A DNA stretch of 47,266 nucleotides from a virus. The notes under the pieces were generated by a model. That model did not search any database, was not told where the DNA came from, and saw nothing but the letters and a program-made list of their open reading frames with translations. Both the position numbers and the translations under genes were made by a program. The stretch spans positions 1-47,266 of IMG/VR virus record IMGVR_UViG_3300047564_000326. One strand, written 5' to 3'. Shown piece after piece: positions 6,328 to 34,452 of this stretch; the stretch's first letter is position 1; every line of letters begins with the position of its first letter.

Positions 6328-6515
6328 ACCTAAAGCCTTTCGTAAACAACAGAGAACTCTGGGACGACTTCTTGGAAGAGCTAAAAGAGCGTATTCAAGC
6401 CTGCCACAAGAAGTTGGAACAGCTAACCGACCCGGTGGACTTTCATCGTACTCAGGGTGAAATCCAAGCCCTCCGCAAACTAGAGCAACTCCGTGACAAG
6501 GTTAATGCTAAATGA
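6324..6515 (+). CDS. Hypothetical small helical protein, GTG start
   Basis: The 63 residues are almost all charged helix, with a likely coiled coil from WDDFLEELKERI to the end. Small proteins of this kind follow the portal gene in many podoviruses; function unknown. The GTG start overlaps the portal stop (GTGA) and the stop overlaps the next ATG (ATGA), so translation is probably coupled to both neighbours, which suggests production in fixed ratio to the portal. Confidence 0.7.
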   Translation: MNLKPFVNNRELWDDFLEELKERIQACHKKLEQLTDPVDFHRTQGEIQALRKLEQLRDKVNAK

Positions 6516-9500
6516 GACTTGAAGACCAGACTGAAGAAGCTTTTCAAGAAGACTTTGGTGTAACTCCTCAGACTTCAGAGCCTAAGGGTAAGGGGTACAT
6601 TGAACTCCTTGTGGATAATATTGTTGGTCTGGACAACGAGTATGAATCCTTTGGTGAGGCTTTCGGTAAGTCCTTCAATGAGGATGAACTTGGTACCCTA
6701 AAGAACATGGCAGTCAGTGCCTATGAGGGCGCCAAAGAGTTTGCTACAAGTCCTATTGAGACGACAAAAGACGTTGCTACAGAGATTTCTGACAGCGTTT
6801 CCAGACTTGGTGCAGAGAGCCTTGACGGCAGAATCAAGCGGATGTACGGTGTAGGTTATCAGGACGCTACTGAGGAACAGGTCACTAAAGCACGAGAGGC
6901 TGTCATTGGGGATGCAATTACCGCTTCCTCTCTGGTCCCTGCTGCCAAGGGTGTGACTACTGTGGCCAAGGCTGCTATCCCCGGTAAGCCCCTTAACACT
7001 TCTGTTGAAGATATTATTAACGCTGAAGACTTTGAACCTCTTGATGAAAATTTTATACCAGTAAACAAACCAAGTGCAGAGTCCCTTAAGTCTGAGATAG
7101 ACTACATGCTAGGAGAAGAGCTTACTCCCCAAGAGGGACTCTCCAAAATTAAAAAGACTAATTTAGAAGACCTTGGGCTTTACAAAAAGGGTACGGTGCT
7201 CGGGGATGCAGCCCTTGATAAGGATAAAATCTTCTCTTCCTTAAAAGACGAAGAACTCTTAAAGCTTGCAGAAGACTTGCCGCACTGGGAAGACGCGAAG
7301 TATAGCAATTACTTGAAGAACACTTTAGTACCTGTTTCAAAGAAAACAGGCGCTGACTGGAGCAACCTCCTAGAAACTTTAAATGACATATCCTCTTATT
7401 TACCAACAAAAGAAAATCCTCAGCTGGCGTTCTTAACTGAAAAACCCCTTCCAAAAAAAGCTCCTGTAGGGGAAAGAGCAGCTACAGGTAGTGCACCTCG
7501 TGCAGCAGACCCTAAGGCAGAACAGCTTGGCTTCCTTGATACTGTGTATCATACTTCGGTATCTCCGCAAGAGTTCACAGAGTTTGACCTCCAGAAAGGT
7601 TTTAGTGGTGAAGTTAGAGCTGCTCAAGACCTATTAGGTGTACACGTAGGTACAGCTAGGGCTGCCGCAGAAAGAAATTTTCAAGCTTACCGCAAAGATG
7701 ATACCCCCAAAGGGTTTACAATGGAACTCCGTGCCAGAGCGACTGACCCTCTTACAAAGGGTGATCTTGCAAGGATGTTTGGAAAAGCCCCAGAGGATAT
7801 CTTTTCTTCCGGCAACACACCTTTAACAGAGTCAGATATTGGGGAAGCCATCTCTTTTTATGAGGATATGCTCTTCCAAGACAAGCAACCACCCAAAGAA
7901 GCTAGGAAGATTGCGGCTGTAGCCTTTAGAAGGGAGTTGGCAAGAGAAGGGTTTACTCACATCCCATACATCAATAGTGTAGAAGACCCCGGAAGCATAA
8001 GCTACATCATGCTTGTAGATAGACCTAAAGACTCCCCTGCAGTCCTAAGAGATGTCAGAGCACAATTTGACCCTAAAAAGGTTACAAGCCCAGACTTAAG
8101 ATTTGCCGAAGGTGGCATGGTAGAGGAAGACCAAATGAATAGACTAATGCAAGAGGGTGGCATTGCTGACGACGGAATGACTCGTGAGCCTGTCACTGGT
8201 AATGAAATCCCTCCGGGTTCTATGGCTTCGGAAGTGCGTGACGATATCCCTGCACAACTGTCAGAGGGTGAGTACATTGTCCCTGCTGATGTCGTCCGCT
8301 TCTTTGGCGTAAGATTCTTTGAAGACCTCCGTAGTCAGGCTAAGCAGGGTCTCCAAGAGATGGATGCTGATGGTCGTATTGGTGGTACCCCCGTAGACGC
8401 TCAGGGAGTGCCTGTGGGAGGTCAAGATGAGGAGCTTACCCCGGAAGAGCAACAGATGCTCATGGAAGCCCTTGGTGCCTCTGGTGGTGGCGCTGGCATG
8501 GCGTATGGCGGTATGATTACCCAGACCCCAGCAAATCCCTACCCTCTCCCGGATATGTCTGTACCTGTGGGGATGGCTGAAGGTGGTATGCCTGATCGTA
8601 CTCAGTTCTCGCTAGGTACTGGGCAAACTGGCATTCAACAGCGTAAGTACATCAACCCTACGACCAAAGAAGAGAGAACGATTAACTTCTTGAATGACAC
8701 CCCTCTTGGTATTGTGCCGGAAGGTTTTGTGCCGTGGACTCAAGAACTTGCAGATGCAGTAAAAGCACCTGAAACAGAGACTCCTACCACCGCTACAGAA
8801 AAAGTAGAGAGAGAAGGTCGTGACAGGGATCAGCAGGGCACTGGTACTTCCGAAAAGAGCTACGAAGGTTGGGCCAAAGAAAACTACGACGCTATCACCT
8901 CTGATCCTTACGGTTTTGGTGTAAATGCTATTAATGATGCTTCCAAGCAAGCTACGGGATTTGGACGTGTCTTCTCTGGTGGTATCATTGGCGATTTCCA
9001 AAAAATGGAGGCTATCTCTGATGCTCAGGCTGCTTTGTCTCGCGTTACGGATGAAGCTCAAAAGCAAGACTTGCAGTCCCGCATTGATGCACTTACAGGC
9101 TCCATAAGCTCACCGATTGTAGGTCTTCTGACAGATATTGGCTTCACCGCTACAGGTAAGCAAAAGAACGCTGCGATTAACGCTATTACAAACCCCACAA
9201 CAGCAACACGTAATTACCAATCTGATTTCTCCATTGAAAAAACTAGGGAGGCTGTCGCAAAAGGCACTTTCGACAAGACTGGCTATGAGAAAGCTTGGTC
9301 AAGACCTTCTACTAATGTTGAGGGCAGAACTCAGGAGGAAAGAGATCGAACTGCAAGAGAACGTGAGAAAGACCTCGCAGCAACTGCAAAAGAGTATGAA
9401 AAAGCTTCTCGAGGGGATGCAGGCGCTATTGGACCTGATTACGATCCCTACTCCGATAAGAGCATTTGGAACACAGGTGGGCTGGTACCTAAGAAACAGG

Positions 9501-9550
9501 CTACTCAAAAAACTGCCGCGAGAAAATCTAGAAAAGGTCTTGCTTCCTAA
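6512..9550 (+). CDS. Large virion-associated protein with ADP-ribosyltransferase-like domain
   Basis: A multi-domain protein of 1012 residues. Residues 1-320 are mixed helical and unrecognised. Residues about 343-525 resemble ADP-ribosyltransferase-like (ART-PolyVal-type) domains: VYHTS (H347), LLGVHVG (374-380), a late REGFTHIPYINSVED with E491, and SYIMLVD (497-503). Residues 530-630 match a segment common in marine phage structural proteins, with GGIADDGM, PPGSMASEVRDDI and SEGEYIVPADVVRF. The remainder is low-complexity and helical, with a basic C-terminus (AARKSRK). Placement between portal and scaffold genes supports a virion or ejected protein. The ART activity is inferred from motif order only; alternatively the domain is degenerate and structural. 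ATGA overlap with the previous gene. Confidence 0.65.
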   Translation: MRLEDQTEEAFQEDFGVTPQTSEPKGKGYIELLVDNIVGLDNEYESFGEAFGKSFNEDELGTLKNMAVSAYEGAKEFATSPIETTKDVATEISDSVSRLGAESLDGRIKRMYGVGYQDATEEQVTKAREAVIGDAITASSLVPAAKGVTTVAKAAIPGKPLNTSVEDIINAEDFEPLDENFIPVNKPSAESLKSEIDYMLGEELTPQEGLSKIKKTNLEDLGLYKKGTVLGDAALDKDKIFSSLKDEELLKLAEDLPHWEDAKYSNYLKNTLVPVSKKTGADWSNLLETLNDISSYLPTKENPQLAFLTEKPLPKKAPVGERAATGSAPRAADPKAEQLGFLDTVYHTSVSPQEFTEFDLQKGFSGEVRAAQDLLGVHVGTARAAAERNFQAYRKDDTPKGFTMELRARATDPLTKGDLARMFGKAPEDIFSSGNTPLTESDIGEAISFYEDMLFQDKQPPKEARKIAAVAFRRELAREGFTHIPYINSVEDPGSISYIMLVDRPKDSPAVLRDVRAQFDPKKVTSPDLRFAEGGMVEEDQMNRLMQEGGIADDGMTREPVTGNEIPPGSMASEVRDDIPAQLSEGEYIVPADVVRFFGVRFFEDLRSQAKQGLQEMDADGRIGGTPVDAQGVPVGGQDEELTPEEQQMLMEALGASGGGAGMAYGGMITQTPANPYPLPDMSVPVGMAEGGMPDRTQFSLGTGQTGIQQRKYINPTTKEERTINFLNDTPLGIVPEGFVPWTQELADAVKAPETETPTTATEKVEREGRDRDQQGTGTSEKSYEGWAKENYDAITSDPYGFGVNAINDASKQATGFGRVFSGGIIGDFQKMEAISDAQAALSRVTDEAQKQDLQSRIDALTGSISSPIVGLLTDIGFTATGKQKNAAINAITNPTTATRNYQSDFSIEKTREAVAKGTFDKTGYEKAWSRPSTNVEGRTQEERDRTAREREKDLAATAKEYEKASRGDAGAIGPDYDPYSDKSIWNTGGLVPKKQATQKTAARKSRKGLAS

Positions 9551-9617: not shown

Positions 9618-10490
9618 ATGTCTGTTACTAAAGTCTACGTTGATTCCAATTTCTCACACAGTCGTAATCGTAAACGTATTGAGGCTGATGAAAAAGAACT
9701 TGAAGAGCTAATCGGTAAGTCTAGAACCTCAGGGCAAGAAGAAGAAGAAAAAGAACAAGAAGAAGAGGTAGTGGTTAAGGCGCAAGAGTCTGAACCTGAG
9801 CCTACTGACCCGGAAGAAAAGTCTTTTAAGAAACGCTACGGCGATCTTCGTAGACACCTCTCTGACAAAGAGAAAGAGTGGGAAGCTAAGTTTGAGGAGT
9901 TGAAGAACTCTGTTAGCGGTACCAAGGTACTCCCTCCCAAGTCAGACGAGGATATTGCTGCATGGGCACGTAAGTACCCTGATGTGGCTTCTATCGTAGA
10001 AACTATTGCTACTAAGAAGGCAGACGAGAAGCTGTCACAGTACAAGAGTAAGTTTGATGAGTATGAGAAGCTGAGTCATGATGCCTCTCGTAACAAAGCA
10101 ATGGATGCTATCCGTCAGGCTCACTCGGACTTTGATGCTCTCCGTAAGTCAGACGAGTTCCACAACTGGGCAGAAGAACAACCTAAGTGGGTTCAGGATG
10201 CTCTGTATGAAAATGAAGAGGATGCTCGTGCAGTTATCCGTGTTCTTGACCTCTACAAAGTCGATAAGGGTATGACCCCCTCGGCACGTAAGGAAAAGAC
10301 CAAGGAAGCCGCATCCCTCGTCACCTCAAAGAACAAAGCCAACATGGACTTTGAGAACGACGGCGAAAGGATTCTTGAGTCTCGTGTCAACAAGATGAGC
10401 ATGGACGAGTACGCCAAGAATGAAAAGAAGATCATGGAGGCCATCCGCAAGGGGAACTTTGTGTATGATCTCTCTGGTGGCGCAAGATAA
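9618..10490 (+). CDS. Capsid scaffolding protein
   Basis: Placed directly before the major capsid gene. The N-terminal third is strongly acidic and disordered (runs of Glu at about residues 40-70); the centre is coiled coil (about 75-155). The segment AHSDFDALRKSDEF with WAEEQPKWVQDALYEN is typical of phage scaffold proteins, and the basic C-terminus would contact the capsid shell. Scaffolds of this type direct procapsid assembly and then leave. The ribosome binding site is AAAGGA, 8-10 nt before the ATG. The preceding 67-nt gap is AT-rich at 9555-9575 and may hold a weak promoter. Confidence 0.85.
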   Translation: MSVTKVYVDSNFSHSRNRKRIEADEKELEELIGKSRTSGQEEEEKEQEEEVVVKAQESEPEPTDPEEKSFKKRYGDLRRHLSDKEKEWEAKFEELKNSVSGTKVLPPKSDEDIAAWARKYPDVASIVETIATKKADEKLSQYKSKFDEYEKLSHDASRNKAMDAIRQAHSDFDALRKSDEFHNWAEEQPKWVQDALYENEEDARAVIRVLDLYKVDKGMTPSARKEKTKEAASLVTSKNKANMDFENDGERILESRVNKMSMDEYAKNEKKIMEAIRKGNFVYDLSGGAR

Positions 10491-10503
10491 AATAAGATAG
10501 TCC

Positions 10504-10531
10504 TTGACAAGTAAGGGCTTCTTCATATAAC
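10504..10531 (+). promoter_or_regulatory. Sigma70-type promoter for the capsid gene
   Basis: TTGACA (10504-10509) is a full -35 match; TATAAC (10526-10531) matches the -10 at five of six bases, with a 16-nt spacer. Transcription should begin near 10537-10539, inside the left arm of a long inverted repeat. It would add capsid-specific transcription on top of read-through from upstream. Confidence 0.65.
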
Positions 10532-10535
10532 TACC

Positions 10536-10594
10536 AACAAATAGCTGTGGCCTCTTGGTGAGAGTACGTCCTAAGACACCCTCGGCTATTTGTT
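10536..10594 (+). other. Structured RNA element in the capsid mRNA leader
   Basis: A perfect 10-bp inverted repeat, AACAAATAGC (10536-10545) and GCTATTTGTT (10585-10594), encloses 39 nt that can form two small hairpins: CTCT/AGAG at 10552-10564 and GTC/GAC at 10568-10577. A short U run follows (10593-10596). It sits at the predicted 5' end of the capsid transcript. Possible roles are 5'-end protection, a short terminated RNA, or a processing site. No known ribozyme core was recognised. The 277-nt gap 10491-10767 contains no gene I can support. Confidence 0.5.
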
Positions 10595-10624
10595 TTACCC
10601 TAAAGTCTAAACGATCAATAAGAC

Positions 10625-10640
10625 ATACCTGATTAGGTAT
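10625..10640 (+). other. Small hairpin in capsid leader
   Basis: ATACCT, a GATT loop and AGGTAT form a perfect 6-bp stem within the same untranslated leader. It may be a second structural element of the leader; with 6 bp it could also be chance. Confidence 0.3.
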
Positions 10641-10767
10641 AGGCCCACAATTTCTAAGCAATAACTGATCCTTATAGTTTATAGACTGTGCACCCTAAAA
10701 ACCCCTCAGCCTCTTAGACGTGTGTTTAGCTTCTAATCAAAGCCAAATATCATAGGAGGATTTTCTC

Positions 10768-11841
10768 ATGGCTTTCCAATCCGCTGCAGGCTATTCGAAC
10801 CTGCCCAACGGTAACTTCTCTTCGGTTATCTACTCGAAGAAAGTCCAACTCGCTTTCCGTAAGGCCACTGTTGCTGGTGACATTACGAACTCGGACTACT
10901 TTGGTGAAATCTCGGCTCAGGGTGATACCGTCCGCATCATCAAAGAACCGGAAATCTCGGTGCAGGCATACAGCCGTGGTACCCAAATCCAAGCCCAAGA
11001 CCTCGACGACGAAGACTTCTCGCTGGTTATCGACAAGGCAAACTCTTTCGCCTTCAAAGTTGATGACATCGAATCGGCTCACTCGCACGTCAACTTCATG
11101 GACCTTGCTACCAACCGTGCGGCTTACCGTCTGGCTGACCAGCATGACCAAGAAGTTCTGGGCTACCTGTCGGGTTACAAGCAGGCTGCTTTGCACACGA
11201 ATGCTGGCACTGTGAATGACGTTGTGAATGGCACCAAAGCTATCACCACGGCTGGCTCGGACGAACTGCTGGCTTCCATGAAGCTGTCGCGTCCCTCGTT
11301 CGGTAACCTGACCACCGCAGGTTCGGTTGGTGACTCGATCCCGGTTGCTGCTCGTCTTCCGGGTGCTTCGGCTCTCCCGACCTCGTATGTCTCGCCTGTG
11401 ATGATTATCAACCGCATGGGCCGTCTGCTCGACCAGCAGAATGTTGACAAGTCGGGCCGCTGGCTGGTCATTGACCCGGTCATGATGGAAATCCTGTCGG
11501 ACGAAGATTCGCGCTTCCTGAGTGCTGACTTCGGTGACGCTGGTGCTCTGCGTAACGGTCTGGTTCTGCCAAACTGGAATGGCTTCCGCGTCTACGTCTC
11601 GAACAACCTGCCGCAAGTCGGCACTGGTTCGGACACCGTGACCGCTTCTGCTCAGTCTTCGAACTACGGTGTGATCGTTGCTGGTCATGACTCGGCTGTG
11701 GCTACCGCTGAGCAGATCAACAAGACCGAGACCTACCGTGACCAAGACTCGTTCGCTGACGTTGTGCGTGGCTTGCACCTGTATGGTCGTAAGATTCTGC
11801 GCCCGGAAGCTCTGACTGTCGCTCGTTACAACCTCGCCTAA
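10768..11841 (+). CDS. Major capsid protein
   Basis: A 357-residue protein in the standard place after the scaffold, with the composition of an HK97-fold capsid protein: an N-terminal arm, LAFRKATVAGDITNSDYFG, and DIESAHSHVNFMDLATNRAAYRL resembling the spine helix and E-loop region of T7-like capsids, and a C-terminal segment on adaptation to multimer contacts. The ribosome binding site AGGAGG (10754-10759) lies 8 nt from the ATG, among the strongest in the window. Codon use differs sharply from most other genes, with Ser mainly TCG and Leu mainly CTG, as expected for the most highly expressed virion gene. A dedicated promoter and structured leader precede it and a hairpin follows. Confidence 0.9.
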   Translation: MAFQSAAGYSNLPNGNFSSVIYSKKVQLAFRKATVAGDITNSDYFGEISAQGDTVRIIKEPEISVQAYSRGTQIQAQDLDDEDFSLVIDKANSFAFKVDDIESAHSHVNFMDLATNRAAYRLADQHDQEVLGYLSGYKQAALHTNAGTVNDVVNGTKAITTAGSDELLASMKLSRPSFGNLTTAGSVGDSIPVAARLPGASALPTSYVSPVMIINRMGRLLDQQNVDKSGRWLVIDPVMMEILSDEDSRFLSADFGDAGALRNGLVLPNWNGFRVYVSNNLPQVGTGSDTVTASAQSSNYGVIVAGHDSAVATAEQINKTETYRDQDSFADVVRGLHLYGRKILRPEALTVARYNLA

Positions 11842-29971: not shown

Positions 29972-30909
29972 TGGGTTTCTGGCAAGGGTTAAACGCTGGT
30001 CTTAAAAACATTAGAGCAGAAAAGATTCGTAAAGAGGAACGGCAGCAAGAGATTGACCTTCGTAAGGCTGAGCGTGACGAAGAGCGTAAATACAGGCGTG
30101 AAGAAATTATGTTGCAGGCTGCTGAGAGTCGCAAGGATGCCTTGTTGGCTATGGGTATTAAAAAAGAGCAAGAGAAGGCAGAAGCAGCGGCTCTTGCAGG
30201 CAAAGCCCAGAGTCTTATCGGTCGTTTTGGTGATTCGAAAGACCCTCGTGTTGCAGCCCTTGCAAGTGATGTTAGGACTGCCGCTGAACTGGAAGATAAG
30301 ATTTACACTCTTGAGGTTGAGGCCCAAAAAGCTGGTGTGGAACTCCCTCCGCTGCAGGGTGAGGCACTCCTTGAACTCCTTACTGTGTACGATCCGGGAA
30401 CTAAGACTGTAGCACCTGTTGATATCACACTTGATGATATCCTTGCGGGTGATTATTCTGATGTTAATGCTTACTATAAGACTGCAGCAGCATTGTCTCA
30501 ACCTGCACCCAGAGTTGATGTCAGAATTAATCCTGAGGCTTACCGCAGGTATGACCCCGAAGTCCTTGAAGAAGGTCGTAAGGTATTCGATCAAGAGGTT
30601 CTTCGTCTGGCGAACAATGCTCGGGACAACATGGCAAAAGACGCAAGTGATTATGGGGAGCTTAGTTCTCTAATTGAAGGTTATGCTAAGGAGGGTAGCG
30701 GAGAACGCTTTGCACTGATGGATATGTTTGGTTCACAAGCATTCGCTGTTTTGGCAGAGTCTGGAAATCCCTACATTCAAGACCTAGAAAATGATGCGAC
30801 CCTCTCCCGCTATTCCACTGTGTATCAACTTAATCGTGTGATTACTGATCCTGAGGCGACAGAAGAGGAAAAGGCAAAGGCACAAGAGCTGTTGACGAGG
30901 TTGCAGTAA
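29971..30909 (+). CDS. Putative internal virion protein, coiled coil
   Basis: 312 residues. The first 75 are a highly charged Lys/Arg/Glu helix (coiled coil), followed by a helical body with few aromatic residues. No family recognised. It is coupled at both ends (TAATG) to the 168-aa protein and the 1169-aa internal protein, so it is likely a component of the same ejection assembly. Confidence 0.6.
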   Translation: MGFWQGLNAGLKNIRAEKIRKEERQQEIDLRKAERDEERKYRREEIMLQAAESRKDALLAMGIKKEQEKAEAAALAGKAQSLIGRFGDSKDPRVAALASDVRTAAELEDKIYTLEVEAQKAGVELPPLQGEALLELLTVYDPGTKTVAPVDITLDDILAGDYSDVNAYYKTAAALSQPAPRVDVRINPEAYRRYDPEVLEEGRKVFDQEVLRLANNARDNMAKDASDYGELSSLIEGYAKEGSGERFALMDMFGSQAFAVLAESGNPYIQDLENDATLSRYSTVYQLNRVITDPEATEEEKAKAQELLTRLQ

Positions 30910-33900
30910 TGGATGGTAAATACTCAGAGTACCTCCAGAGCCTAGATGCAAACATCCCTGTAACAAAGACACCCGCTATTGCTGGTAAGTACGGGACTCT
31001 GCTACAAGAGCTTGATAAAAAAGTTGGCATGACGCCTGTGCCGGAAGCCCTCAAGCAGCCTGAGGAAGAACCTGTAGTCGAGTACTCTCAGATGAATTAC
31101 TCTGAGAACGATCTCTTGCAGGATGACTTCTTTGTACCCATCCAAGAGTACATGGTGGACCGCTTTGGTACCCACATGCAGGACTTGGACAAAGAGGATA
31201 TTGTAGAGAAGTTTACCAACAACATGCGTGGTTTTGCTGGTGGTAACTCTGTTCGTGCAATTAATGAAATCACTTACCTGAATGAAGTGGGTGAGGATGA
31301 GGAACGTCTTGCTAAGGCTGGCAGGGCGTATGAAATCTTTGAGGGTCTTCAAAGTCTGTCTGGTGACACTGGGTGGGGCGAGAAGGCTGAAATCCTCTTT
31401 GACTACACTCGTTCTGCTGTCCTTGACCCTGTCAACGTCCTAGGACTTGGTATTGGTAAGACTGCAACTGGTGTGGGCTTCAAGGCTGGTTCTCAGGTAA
31501 CTCTGATTGCTGCTAAGCAGGCTTACAAGAAACAACTTGCTAAGGGTGCGACGACAGAGGCTGCTCAGAAAGTGGCTGAACGTGTTCTCCGTAAGCAGAC
31601 TGCACGTGTTGTTACTGAGACGAACAAGCAGATTGCCACACGTCAGGCTGCAGAGAAAGCAGCAACAACCTACCTACAGCGCATGACCACCCCTACTGCA
31701 CTCAAGGAGGCTGCTATTGTTGGTGGCTTCGAGGCTGCTGTGTCTGCTGGTACTGACTACTTGTATCAGGATGCAATGCTTCGTACCAAGGTACAAGAAG
31801 AGTACAACGTGTATCAGACTGGCCTCTCTGCCGTTGTTGGTCTGGTTGCAGGTGGGCTGTCTGGTTCTCTCAGCAACGTAGGTACTGGTGCATCTGGGCT
31901 ACTTCCTCCTGCGCCCCTGAATACATCCACTAAGGGTTCTAAGTCAGTCAGCAAAGTAGTCAACCAGACTGCTACCACTGCCGCCTCACCCGCTGGTGGT
32001 CCTGCTGTCCCTACTGGGAACTGGCTCAAGGATATTGCCAAAGGCAAGGAGCTTAAGGATCAGGACACAGAGTTCTTCATTACGATGCTCTTGGGCAACG
32101 ACGAGAAGGGCCTCAAGGGTCTTGCTCAAATCCTCGTCGAGGATGGTTATGTCTGGAGAAGAAGAACTCCTGAGGATAAAGTGTCCAACTGGATTGGCGA
32201 TATCATCAAGAACTCTGATCCTCAGGATGCCAAGCAGTTCATTGATGACTTCACCAAGGCCACTGGCATCAAGATGAATGACGGCAAGAAGCTCACCATT
32301 GAGGGCTTTGCTGACACGTTCAAAAAGAAGATGAGCGACAGTGGTAAAGTCCTGAACTCGGTCGGTCAAGTGGCCAAGGTTCTTGGTCGTGACCCTAAGG
32401 CTATCACCATTGAGGATTATGCACAGTTTGTCTTGGGTGGTGGTGTCCCTACTCAACAGACTGTCACCAGTGCTGGTGCAAACAGAGTGGGTAAGGCTGT
32501 TGGTGACTTTGTTAGTCGTGATCTCCCTGACTTCCAGAACAACATCATCCGCCTGATGGTGTCTAACCTCTCTACTACTGCCCTGAACGTAACTGGGTAT
32601 GCTGCTGCCACTGGTTTGAACACTGCTACAGACATCACTCGTGCTGTTCTTATGGGCGGTAACGCTGGCATCTACTTGGCTATCAAACCTAAAGAAGCCA
32701 AGGCTATGGGTATCGAAGCACTCAGCCTACTGCAAAACCAAGTCACCAAGGCTCGTAACACACTTGATCCCAACACCACCTACGAGACTTTCCTGCAGTA
32801 TGCCCAACAGCGTCCTGAGGCTATGCGTCAGCTTACTGCTGTCCTTCCCGGTGGCATTGAGTCTCTAGACAAACTGGCCAAGGGTTTTGATCCTAGCACC
32901 CCACTACTGACACTCCAAGCTAATCAGGCTGTAGACGTTATCCAGCGTATGTCTCTGGTGAGTGCTCAGGACGGCTACACTAAGGCCATTGAGTTCACTT
33001 CCCAGATGGACAAGCTACTTCGTCGTTCTGAGGACAAGGGTGGCTTTGGTATGTCGTGGAATGAGTTCTTTGCCCTTCCTGACCACCAGTCGAAGATGGT
33101 TAGTGAGCGTTACGCAAAGATTGAGGCGCAGGCTGTGGATGAAACTCTGAGGGCTGTGTTCTCTAAATCCTTCAAGGGTAGAGGGTTTGTGGGTGAAGTG
33201 GCAGGTATGATTGAGGACGCTCGTAACCTTCCGGGTATCGGTCTCCTTGTTCCTTTCGGTCGCTTCTTCAACAACACTGTTGCCTTTGCTTATCAGACTA
33301 CTGCCGCTGGCCCCCTGCTTTCTAAAGCAATGGGTCTTGGGGATACCTCTAAGCCTACCTCTGAGTTGGTGTCTAGGGGTCTTGTCACTTGGTCGTTGAT
33401 TGGTATGCTTACCCAGCGTGAGATGGACTACATTGACCAAGGTCTGGGTTGGAGTGAGGAGATCGACGAAGATACTGGTGAGGTCATTGACGAGCGTTAC
33501 GAGTTCCCTTACGGTGTTTACAAGGCTGTTGCCCGTGGCTTTGCACATCACATGCGTGGTGACGAGATTCCGAAAGACTTGATTGCCCAGTTTGGGGACC
33601 AGTTCGTTGGTCAGCTTACCCGTCAGCTTGGCGAGGCAGGTCAGGGTCTTAACAACATCGTCAGTGCTGTCTTGTCTGATGAAGGGCCGGGATTGGCTAA
33701 GATTCTGGGCGACAGTCTGGGAACCATCTTCTCTCAGGCTGCGTCAGGTATCACTCGTCCTCTTGAACCTTTCAACGTACTTGCGGGCCTGTCCCGTGAT
33801 GAAGAGTTCTATGTGCCGGATCGTAAGCAGGGTACTGCATGGGTGAACAATTCACTTCGTTACATGGATCAATTCCTTGGTCTTGTTACTGGTGAGAACC

Positions 33901-34418
33901 TTGCTCCTCCTAAGCAGTCTGCCGCAGAGGGTCAACCCACTGTTCAAGCCTCTAAACTTGTCTCTACGACCAGAGGCTCTAGACTTACTAACACTGAACG
34001 TGTGATGAATGCGATTGGTAAGCCTACCTTCTTGGCAAACATGGCCTCGCAGTCTGAGGCTGCTGACAACAGATACAACGAAATCTTCAACGAGATCGTA
34101 GAGGATCAGGCTGGACTGTTGTTTAAGTCGAAGAGCTTTAGCGAGGGTGATCTTGAGTACAAGCAGATGATGGTCACTAAGATGATTACAGAGGCACGTA
34201 AGGCAACTCTAGGATACATGGGTAGGGTTGCTTCCAACAATGGTGATCGTGCCATGATGAAGATGATTAACATCTCTCGTGCCTACCCGAAGCTCACAGT
34301 GCAGCGTACTCTCGAAGACCTTGGGTTTGATCGTGGTATTGATAGGTTGTCTGAGGAAGAGTTGGACACACTAGACAATGCTCTTAAGTTCCGAGAAGAG
34401 TTCTTACTTAGGAAGTAA
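30909..34418 (+). CDS. Largest internal virion (ejection) protein, 1169 aa
   Basis: The largest protein of the window and the last virion gene before the terminator, as T7 gp16 is near the end of its internal core genes. It is mainly helical. Hydrophobic or Gly-rich helices that could insert into membrane lie near 300-325 (VVGLVAGGLSG) and 770-800 (GIGLLVPFGRFFNNTVAFAYQT). No lysozyme motif is seen; that function is in the separate gene at 28741. A role in forming the DNA channel across the envelope is inferred from size, place and composition. Confidence 0.7.
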   Translation: MDGKYSEYLQSLDANIPVTKTPAIAGKYGTLLQELDKKVGMTPVPEALKQPEEEPVVEYSQMNYSENDLLQDDFFVPIQEYMVDRFGTHMQDLDKEDIVEKFTNNMRGFAGGNSVRAINEITYLNEVGEDEERLAKAGRAYEIFEGLQSLSGDTGWGEKAEILFDYTRSAVLDPVNVLGLGIGKTATGVGFKAGSQVTLIAAKQAYKKQLAKGATTEAAQKVAERVLRKQTARVVTETNKQIATRQAAEKAATTYLQRMTTPTALKEAAIVGGFEAAVSAGTDYLYQDAMLRTKVQEEYNVYQTGLSAVVGLVAGGLSGSLSNVGTGASGLLPPAPLNTSTKGSKSVSKVVNQTATTAASPAGGPAVPTGNWLKDIAKGKELKDQDTEFFITMLLGNDEKGLKGLAQILVEDGYVWRRRTPEDKVSNWIGDIIKNSDPQDAKQFIDDFTKATGIKMNDGKKLTIEGFADTFKKKMSDSGKVLNSVGQVAKVLGRDPKAITIEDYAQFVLGGGVPTQQTVTSAGANRVGKAVGDFVSRDLPDFQNNIIRLMVSNLSTTALNVTGYAAATGLNTATDITRAVLMGGNAGIYLAIKPKEAKAMGIEALSLLQNQVTKARNTLDPNTTYETFLQYAQQRPEAMRQLTAVLPGGIESLDKLAKGFDPSTPLLTLQANQAVDVIQRMSLVSAQDGYTKAIEFTSQMDKLLRRSEDKGGFGMSWNEFFALPDHQSKMVSERYAKIEAQAVDETLRAVFSKSFKGRGFVGEVAGMIEDARNLPGIGLLVPFGRFFNNTVAFAYQTTAAGPLLSKAMGLGDTSKPTSELVSRGLVTWSLIGMLTQREMDYIDQGLGWSEEIDEDTGEVIDERYEFPYGVYKAVARGFAHHMRGDEIPKDLIAQFGDQFVGQLTRQLGEAGQGLNNIVSAVLSDEGPGLAKILGDSLGTIFSQAASGITRPLEPFNVLAGLSRDEEFYVPDRKQGTAWVNNSLRYMDQFLGLVTGENLAPPKQSAAEGQPTVQASKLVSTTRGSRLTNTERVMNAIGKPTFLANMASQSEAADNRYNEIFNEIVEDQAGLLFKSKSFSEGDLEYKQMMVTKMITEARKATLGYMGRVASNNGDRAMMKMINISRAYPKLTVQRTLEDLGFDRGIDRLSEEELDTLDNALKFREEFLLRK

Positions 34419-34429
34419 CACAAAGAGAG

Positions 34430-34452
34430 AGGGGGCCGCAAGGCCCCCTTTT
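34430..34452. terminator. Intrinsic terminator between converging operons
   Basis: AGGGGGCC (34430-34437), a GCAA tetraloop and GGCCCCCT (34442-34449) form a perfect 8-bp stem followed by TTTT on the plus strand. On the minus strand the stem is followed by a pyrimidine-rich TCTCTCTTTG, so weak bidirectional action is possible. It ends the virion operon 12 nt after its last stop. Confidence 0.85.

Follow-up and report, generated by a model that had tools for sequence, protein, structure and literature searches.

The window (the whole stretch of DNA analysed here, 47,266 nt, IMGVR_UViG_3300047564_000326) is placed by its proteins among the HMO-2011-type podophages. Its major capsid gene (nt 10768–11841, + strand) is assigned to PHROG 267 (major head protein; E 4e-64), and the gene product shares 82% identity with the CRP-13 (Roseobacter phage) coat protein. 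Terminase and portal genes were recognised upstream by PHROG comparison, and the gene in the scaffold position (nt 9618–10490) is separated from the capsid gene by 277 nt, the largest gap between consecutive + strand genes in the range nt 8–34418. Two very long late ORFs (nt 6512–9550 and 30909–34418; 1012 and 1169 aa) have no PHROG match. The last late gene is followed by a strong intrinsic terminator (nt 34427–34452, + strand; 11 bp stem, TTTT), which the terminator scan called on both strands, at the point where the + strand late genes meet the – strand replication genes. No intrinsic terminator of the late operon stands out before this one in the same scan, so a transcript from the start predicted at nt 10537 may run for about 24 kb.

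Near the beginning of the gap is a sigma-70-type promoter, TTGACA-N16-TATAAC (nt 10504–10531, + strand; hexamers at nt 10504–10509 and 10526–10531), exactly as given in the preliminary description of this DNA. It is the only site in the window that matches TTGACA-N16..18-TATAA(C/T) without mismatch. Allowing at most one mismatch to TTGACA/TATAAT, there are 2 sites in the window versus 0.5 in shuffles, and about 0.0015 would be expected on this strand of the 277-nt gap. The hexamers predict a transcription start at nt 10537–10539. Among metagenomic relatives whose sequence extends far enough upstream, nearly all have a matching promoter ahead of the element described below. At the other end of the gap, the optimal Shine-Dalgarno sequence (SD) AGGAGG that had been reported is present at nt 10754–10759, 8 nt before the ATG. 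Elsewhere in the window, a second promoter-like site, TTGACA-N17-TATAAG (nt 2347–2375), has a predicted start that coincides with the ATG of an ORF at nt 2382, and its transcript is therefore possibly leaderless.

Architecture of the leader RNA

Between the promoter and the capsid gene lies a folded leader RNA of about 200 nt, which is kept in well over 100 related aquatic phages and comprises a 5'-terminal hairpin (D1) and a longer second domain (D2), both on the + strand. D1 (nt 10537–10593), delimited by folding and covariation, begins at the predicted transcription start. It is built on a 10-bp inverted repeat (nt 10536–10545/10585–10594) and ends in UUUU (TTTT, nt 10593–10596); both had been noted before, and the repeat is indeed perfect, although such repeats are not rare (5 in the window, 0–6 in shuffles). 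The predicted fold has an energy of –22.7 kcal/mol (z –4.4). Folding does not reproduce the two small hairpins that had been placed inside the repeat, and instead gives a single irregular arm interrupted by a CC/CAC internal loop.

The rest of the leader had been described as about 170 nt with another 6-bp hairpin. This stretch is present, but within it a second domain of 125 positions, more strongly conserved than D1, had been overlooked. D2 (nt 10601–10734), defined by covariance model R1 and by covariation, is a rod-like domain in the order P1, P2, loop-E-like element, P3 and apical hairpin; the model scores it at 96.9 bits and finds no other match in the window. The 5' strand of P1, AAAGUCUAAAC (nt 10602–10612), pairs with GUUUAGCUU (nt 10724–10732) in one of two alternative forms, state A, while in the other, state B, the latter strand pairs with nt 10740–10748 to form a helix designated P4. 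The consensus of P1 is AAGUCUAAAC/GUUUAGCUU. In P2 the 5' strand AAGA-CAUAC-CUG (nt 10620–10631), of which ACC is invariant in relatives, lies opposite the near-invariant CAG-CC-UCUU (nt 10707–10715, including CCUCUU at nt 10710–10715), with the consensus AAGA-NYNAC-CUG/CAG-CC-UCUU. These helices enclose the loop-E-like strand AGGUA (consensus AAGUA) together with UAGG of P3a (nt 10635–10643, assigned by comparison with relatives), and then P3b, which shows covariation, and the apical hairpin (nt 10644–10693); the consensus of P3 is YAGG-CC-CR/YG-CAC-CCUR. Most of 37 divergent relatives have AGUA opposite GAA between Watson-Crick helices at the loop-E-like position. The window itself breaks this consensus (nt 10635–10639 and 10698–10700), having GGUA/AAA where its nearest relatives keep AGUA/GAA. 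Downstream of D2, the segment nt 10740–10759, which is conserved in relatives, contains the 3' strand of P4, AAGCCAAAU (nt 10740–10748), followed by the SD.

An internal loop of 5'-CC-3' opposite 5'-(N)nAC-3' occurs three times, in D1, P2 and P3. Module 1 (nt 10551–10579) has CC at nt 10551–10552 opposite CAC at nt 10577–10579, and follows a GCC..(N)ACC pattern in relatives. Module 2 has its long strand in the 5' strand of P2 (AC at nt 10627–10628), and module 3, recognised by sequence comparison, has CC at nt 10644–10645 opposite CAC at nt 10691–10693. The CC is on the 5' side in D1 and P3 and on the 3' side in P2, and the strand opposite it (CUAC, NYNAC or CAC) ends in AC. Among the relatives, of which the isolates were read by eye, the flanking pairs of P2a switch together from CUG/CAG to CUA/UAG, to CUC/GAG (CRP-2, CRP-603 and CRP-207) or to CAG/CUG (CRP-3 and CRP-235), the loop-closing G-C of D1 becomes A-U in CRP-1, and the P3 loop of CRP-2 and CRP-603 is ACUAC, not CAC. 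As the flanking pairs change in a compensatory manner while the loop is kept, it is the loop and not the sequence of the helices that appears to be conserved, and this suggests specific recognition. An identification of the CC/AC module as a C-loop was considered; the literature consulted offered no sequence test for it, and the module was left unnamed. Self-dimerisation via palindromic apical loops (GGCC, GCGC, GATC) was dropped because other apical loops (GGCA, GGCG) are not palindromes.

Distribution and covariation among relatives

The sample of relatives consisted of 80 contigs with related capsid genes and at least 120 pattern matches. Metagenome matches listed include at least 600 capsid relatives and at least 120 element-bearing stretches, so that abundance is given as a lower bound, from a sample biased to close relatives. 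Across the sampled relatives it is the entire gap that is conserved, beyond the hairpin alone. The capsid gene lies directly downstream in 170 of 172 pattern matches (among the matches listed), the two exceptions being one cut by a contig end and one that is probably a chance match. One clear copy each was found in 15 of 21 whole phage records (E ≤ 1e-4). D2 was detected in CRP-1, 2, 3, 9, 13, 207, 235 and 603, in HMO-2011 and in metagenomic phage MW202701; the match is weak in CRP-212 (E 0.007), and the covariance model finds no D2 in CRP-738 or in CRP-345, the latter keeping the modules by eye and by fold. HMO-2011, which was left out of model building, folds alone into the same rod as D2. 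The capsid leaders of Rhizobium phage RHph_N3_13 and Sinorhizobium phage phiM6 are shorter and lack the TTGACA/TATAAC promoter, and retain two CC/AC modules in nested arrangement. The short gaps of Pelagibacter, Aeromonas, Pseudoalteromonas and Vibrio relatives have no element. Outside the capsid leader, hairpin model R2 gave weak matches only. In bacterial genomes the exact pattern occurred in 118 stretches; 93 of these were scored with the covariance model, none matched it, and the stretches were therefore set aside as chance-like.

Several relatives carry additional sequence in the leader. In MW202701.1 (locus 1815–2384) an HNH-type endonuclease gene lies inside it, parting the promoter and 5' hairpin from D2. 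In CRP-13, L009, L042 and others there is an extra inserted stretch between D2 and the SD, which in several lineages includes a CACACA...TGTGTGGG hairpin, the downstream AAGCCAAA motif being mostly kept. The related isolates examined have almost no annotation of the gap, the exceptions being the HNH-type gene of MW202701 and a 138-nt minus-strand hypothetical ORF that reaches into the leader of RHph_N3_19.

The proposal that the capsid transcript begins with a structured RNA is supported by the comparison of relatives, in which the paired positions are conserved with compensatory changes; a lack of such conservation had been named in the preliminary description as a ground for refutation. When strands were swapped among the 37 divergent relatives, pairing in D1 was 7.64 for own strands versus 5.32 for swapped ones (sd 0.23), a difference that is inflated because the register was chosen by complementarity. 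When D1 was retested with anchors picked without reference to pairing, three pairs of its stem covaried (E ≤ 0.017); apart from these, a single pair, of adjacent columns (0,1), fell below 0.1. The D1 sequence is lost in CRP-2, CRP-603, CRP-207 and HMO-2011, which have another hairpin near the 5' end.

For D2, the swap test among the same 37 relatives gave 6.03 versus 4.06 (sd 0.20) for P3b and 5.11 versus 4.46 (sd 0.13) for P2a. In a further swap test the inner arm gave z –12.2 against –1.1 for the control. On a MAFFT alignment the covariation score was 0.269, compared with 0.124 when shuffled (0 of 500) and at most 0.083 when slid. A tree-aware null was also applied, with a script modelled on R-scape in which substitutions were randomly re-placed on a FastTree tree (40 nulls) and the alignment was fitted to the covariance model. 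Three of 25 structural pairs were significant (E=0; two in P3b and one apical) and no other pair fell below 0.1; the remaining pairs are mostly near-invariant and thus uninformative either way. G-U pairs occur among the covarying positions. RNAalifold, run on the unmodified MAFFT alignment, recovered 4 pairs only, because the sequence alignment broke the variable helices, and was replaced by the anchored swap tests, covariance model and tree-aware nulls. The pairs it recovered (CCUG/YAGG) point to an alternative local hairpin, which is dominant in only a few single sequences.

Possible refolding onto the Shine-Dalgarno sequence and alternative functions

The 3' half of D2 holds an anti-SD, CCUCUU of the P2 3' strand, which is complementary to AGGAGG. 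In addition, GUUUAGCUU can pair with either AAGUCUAAAC of P1 or AAGCCAAAU just before the SD, two partners that look alike. Folded to the start codon, the window leader adopts an SD-sequestering form in which GCCUCUU is paired with AGGAGG; with other end points the P1/P2 form wins, so the two forms are nearly isoenergetic in the folding model. Across relatives, state A is less stable than state B by a median of 2.7 kcal/mol, in a comparison that leaves non-canonical loop contacts uncounted and replaces an earlier one that forced helices common to both states. Mean SD pairing in relatives is 0.76, of which 0.51 is with the strand of P2, other strands serving in many relatives, and the modelled state A leaves the SD entirely free in 2 of 20 only. 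Both observations, like the extra hairpin that several lineages have between D2 and the SD, count against the refolding.

Swap tests support the SD hairpin as a whole (own versus swapped, z –4.6; reversed-strand controls –1.5 and –1.2), as well as P4 alone (z –3.5), while P1 with P2b reaches only z –1.9 (p=0.034). The SD/anti-SD part by itself shows no covariation (z –0.4), both strands being constrained for other reasons. Neither P4 nor P1 is significant in the tree-aware test; the pairs of both are mostly invariant, and in P4 the result is attributable to a core that hardly varies.

The leader RNA probably helps to control the timing or amount of capsid protein made. The presence in the 3' half of D2 of an anti-SD able to refold onto the SD makes a two-state leader the best mechanism, and the modelled folds are tentatively read here, with somewhat less than even confidence, as a cis-acting 5' leader of the capsid/late mRNA, with a D2-based switch on capsid translation and D1 as a cap. 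D2 would be the recognition domain for a putative trans factor; the repetition of the loop module in opposite orientations makes a protein the most likely candidate. With D2 folded (state A), CCUCUU would be kept inside P2, AGGAGG would be unblocked and capsid translated; with the outer helices of D2 open (state B), CCUCUU and GUUUAGCUU would refold onto AGGAGG and AAGCCAAAU, shutting translation down, and the proportion of the two states would be set by factor binding. D1 would seal the 5' end against decay. Such protection, raised in the preliminary description, is consistent with the mean of 2.6 unpaired nt from predicted start to first stem in relatives versus 7.5 in shuffles, a figure that rests mainly on the metagenomic set, some isolates' promoters having been mis-assigned. 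That the leader is moreover an RNA family not known before, in which the repeated, oppositely oriented CC/(N)nAC loops serve to sense a virion or host protein and refolding onto the SD turns capsid translation on or off, is a more doubtful proposition.

Given the predicted transcript of about 24 kb, the leading rival is processive antitermination or anti-pausing, in which nascent D1/D2 would bind host RNA polymerase, as HK022 put RNA does, so that it crosses the 24-kb late operon. The leader is at the very 5' end of this predicted transcript, which one strong promoter would drive as far as the terminator at nt 34427–34452, and put RNA is likewise found just downstream of its promoter, as hairpins with bulges (PMC9378689). 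Put RNA binds the beta' zinc-binding domain and consists of two adjacent stem-loops, about 70 nt in all (PMC9378689), whereas D2 is a long rod. With no internal intrinsic terminator standing out there is nothing obvious to read through, the conserved SD-complementary strand is left unexplained, and a clear copy occurs in the capsid leader only, all of which makes this role unlikely. About as unlikely is a leader that is static, on a capsid mRNA expressed at high level as in T7 gene 10, in which D1 would block 5'-end-dependent decay and D2 would space or shield without switching. This agrees with the optimal SD, the strong promoter and the 5' hairpin that CRP-2 and CRP-207 retain at the predicted start despite replacement of its sequence and module, but it does not account for the near-invariant internal-loop bases of D2 and the repeated module, which suggest specific recognition.

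A metabolite-sensing riboswitch, with D2 as the aptamer and the SD hairpin as the expression platform, is improbable. D2 is a conserved domain with aptamer-like loops and covariation, and the SD hairpin may be mutually exclusive with it (swap z –4.6, but not significant in the tree-aware test, its core being near-invariant); however, there is no Rfam riboswitch match, capsid is not a metabolic gene, and a loop that occurs three times is more in keeping with a protein or structural motif. Early termination after D1, releasing a separate small RNA, had been offered on the strength of the hairpin and the UUUU seen in the window, and finds no support. At least five T in the next 8 nt occur in 1 of 35 metagenomic sequences; this lack of conservation makes termination unlikely. 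Furthermore, the terminator scan of the window called nothing there, the base of the stem is A-U rich, so that D1 lacks the combination of GC-rich stem and conserved U-run that marks a terminator, and D2 and the capsid gene come next in relatives; this reading is accordingly very improbable. Least credible is a site of self-cleavage or RNase processing, or an element that acts as DNA (origin, packaging site), which would suit a single-copy feature, but there is no Rfam ribozyme match, the position is fixed beside SD and promoter, and covarying G-U pairs favour RNA over DNA.

Comparison with known systems

None of the 4227 families of Rfam 15 matches the window at gathering score, the best weak match being mir-970 (E 0.33, 19 bits against a cut-off of 53). 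The open-access literature (subscription papers and preprints being outside its scope) contained no description of the element, nor of HMO-2011 promoters or RNAs bearing on it. HMO-2011-type phages are widespread in aquatic metagenomes. With a conserved leader in front of the gene for the virion protein they make in largest amount, the timing and dose of capsid synthesis become open to experiment, and cultured phage-host pairs for this exist (CRP phages on Rhodobacteraceae, HMO-2011 on Puniceispirillum). The internal loop that occurs three times may itself be a new module for recognition between RNA and protein. If the leader is indeed a protein-sensing switch, these common aquatic phages would regulate capsid synthesis by feedback at the RNA level.

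Translational riboswitches and ribosomal-protein leaders have a conserved recognition domain whose 3' strands can sequester the SD instead. D2 resembles these in being a conserved domain with 3' strands that could do the same, and differs in preceding a phage structural gene and in having a fold absent from Rfam 15. The capsid gene of T7, gene 10, has its own promoter (phi10), a 5' stem-loop and a strong SD, and so shares with the present locus a dedicated promoter directly before the capsid gene, a 5'-terminal stem-loop and the strong SD. T7, however, has its own RNA polymerase and a short gene 10 leader, which is not known to have a conserved second domain or an SD-sequestering alternative. 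The AGUA opposite GAA inside D2 of most relatives is similar to the sarcin-ricin/loop E motif, although this is one element of D2 only and is GGUA/AAA in the window. Lastly, HK022 put is also a phage RNA immediately downstream of a promoter, as D1 is at the predicted start, and also has hairpins with internal loops, while the leader described here combines D1 with a D2 rod of about 125 nt, a CC/AC loop that recurs and a strand complementary to the SD.
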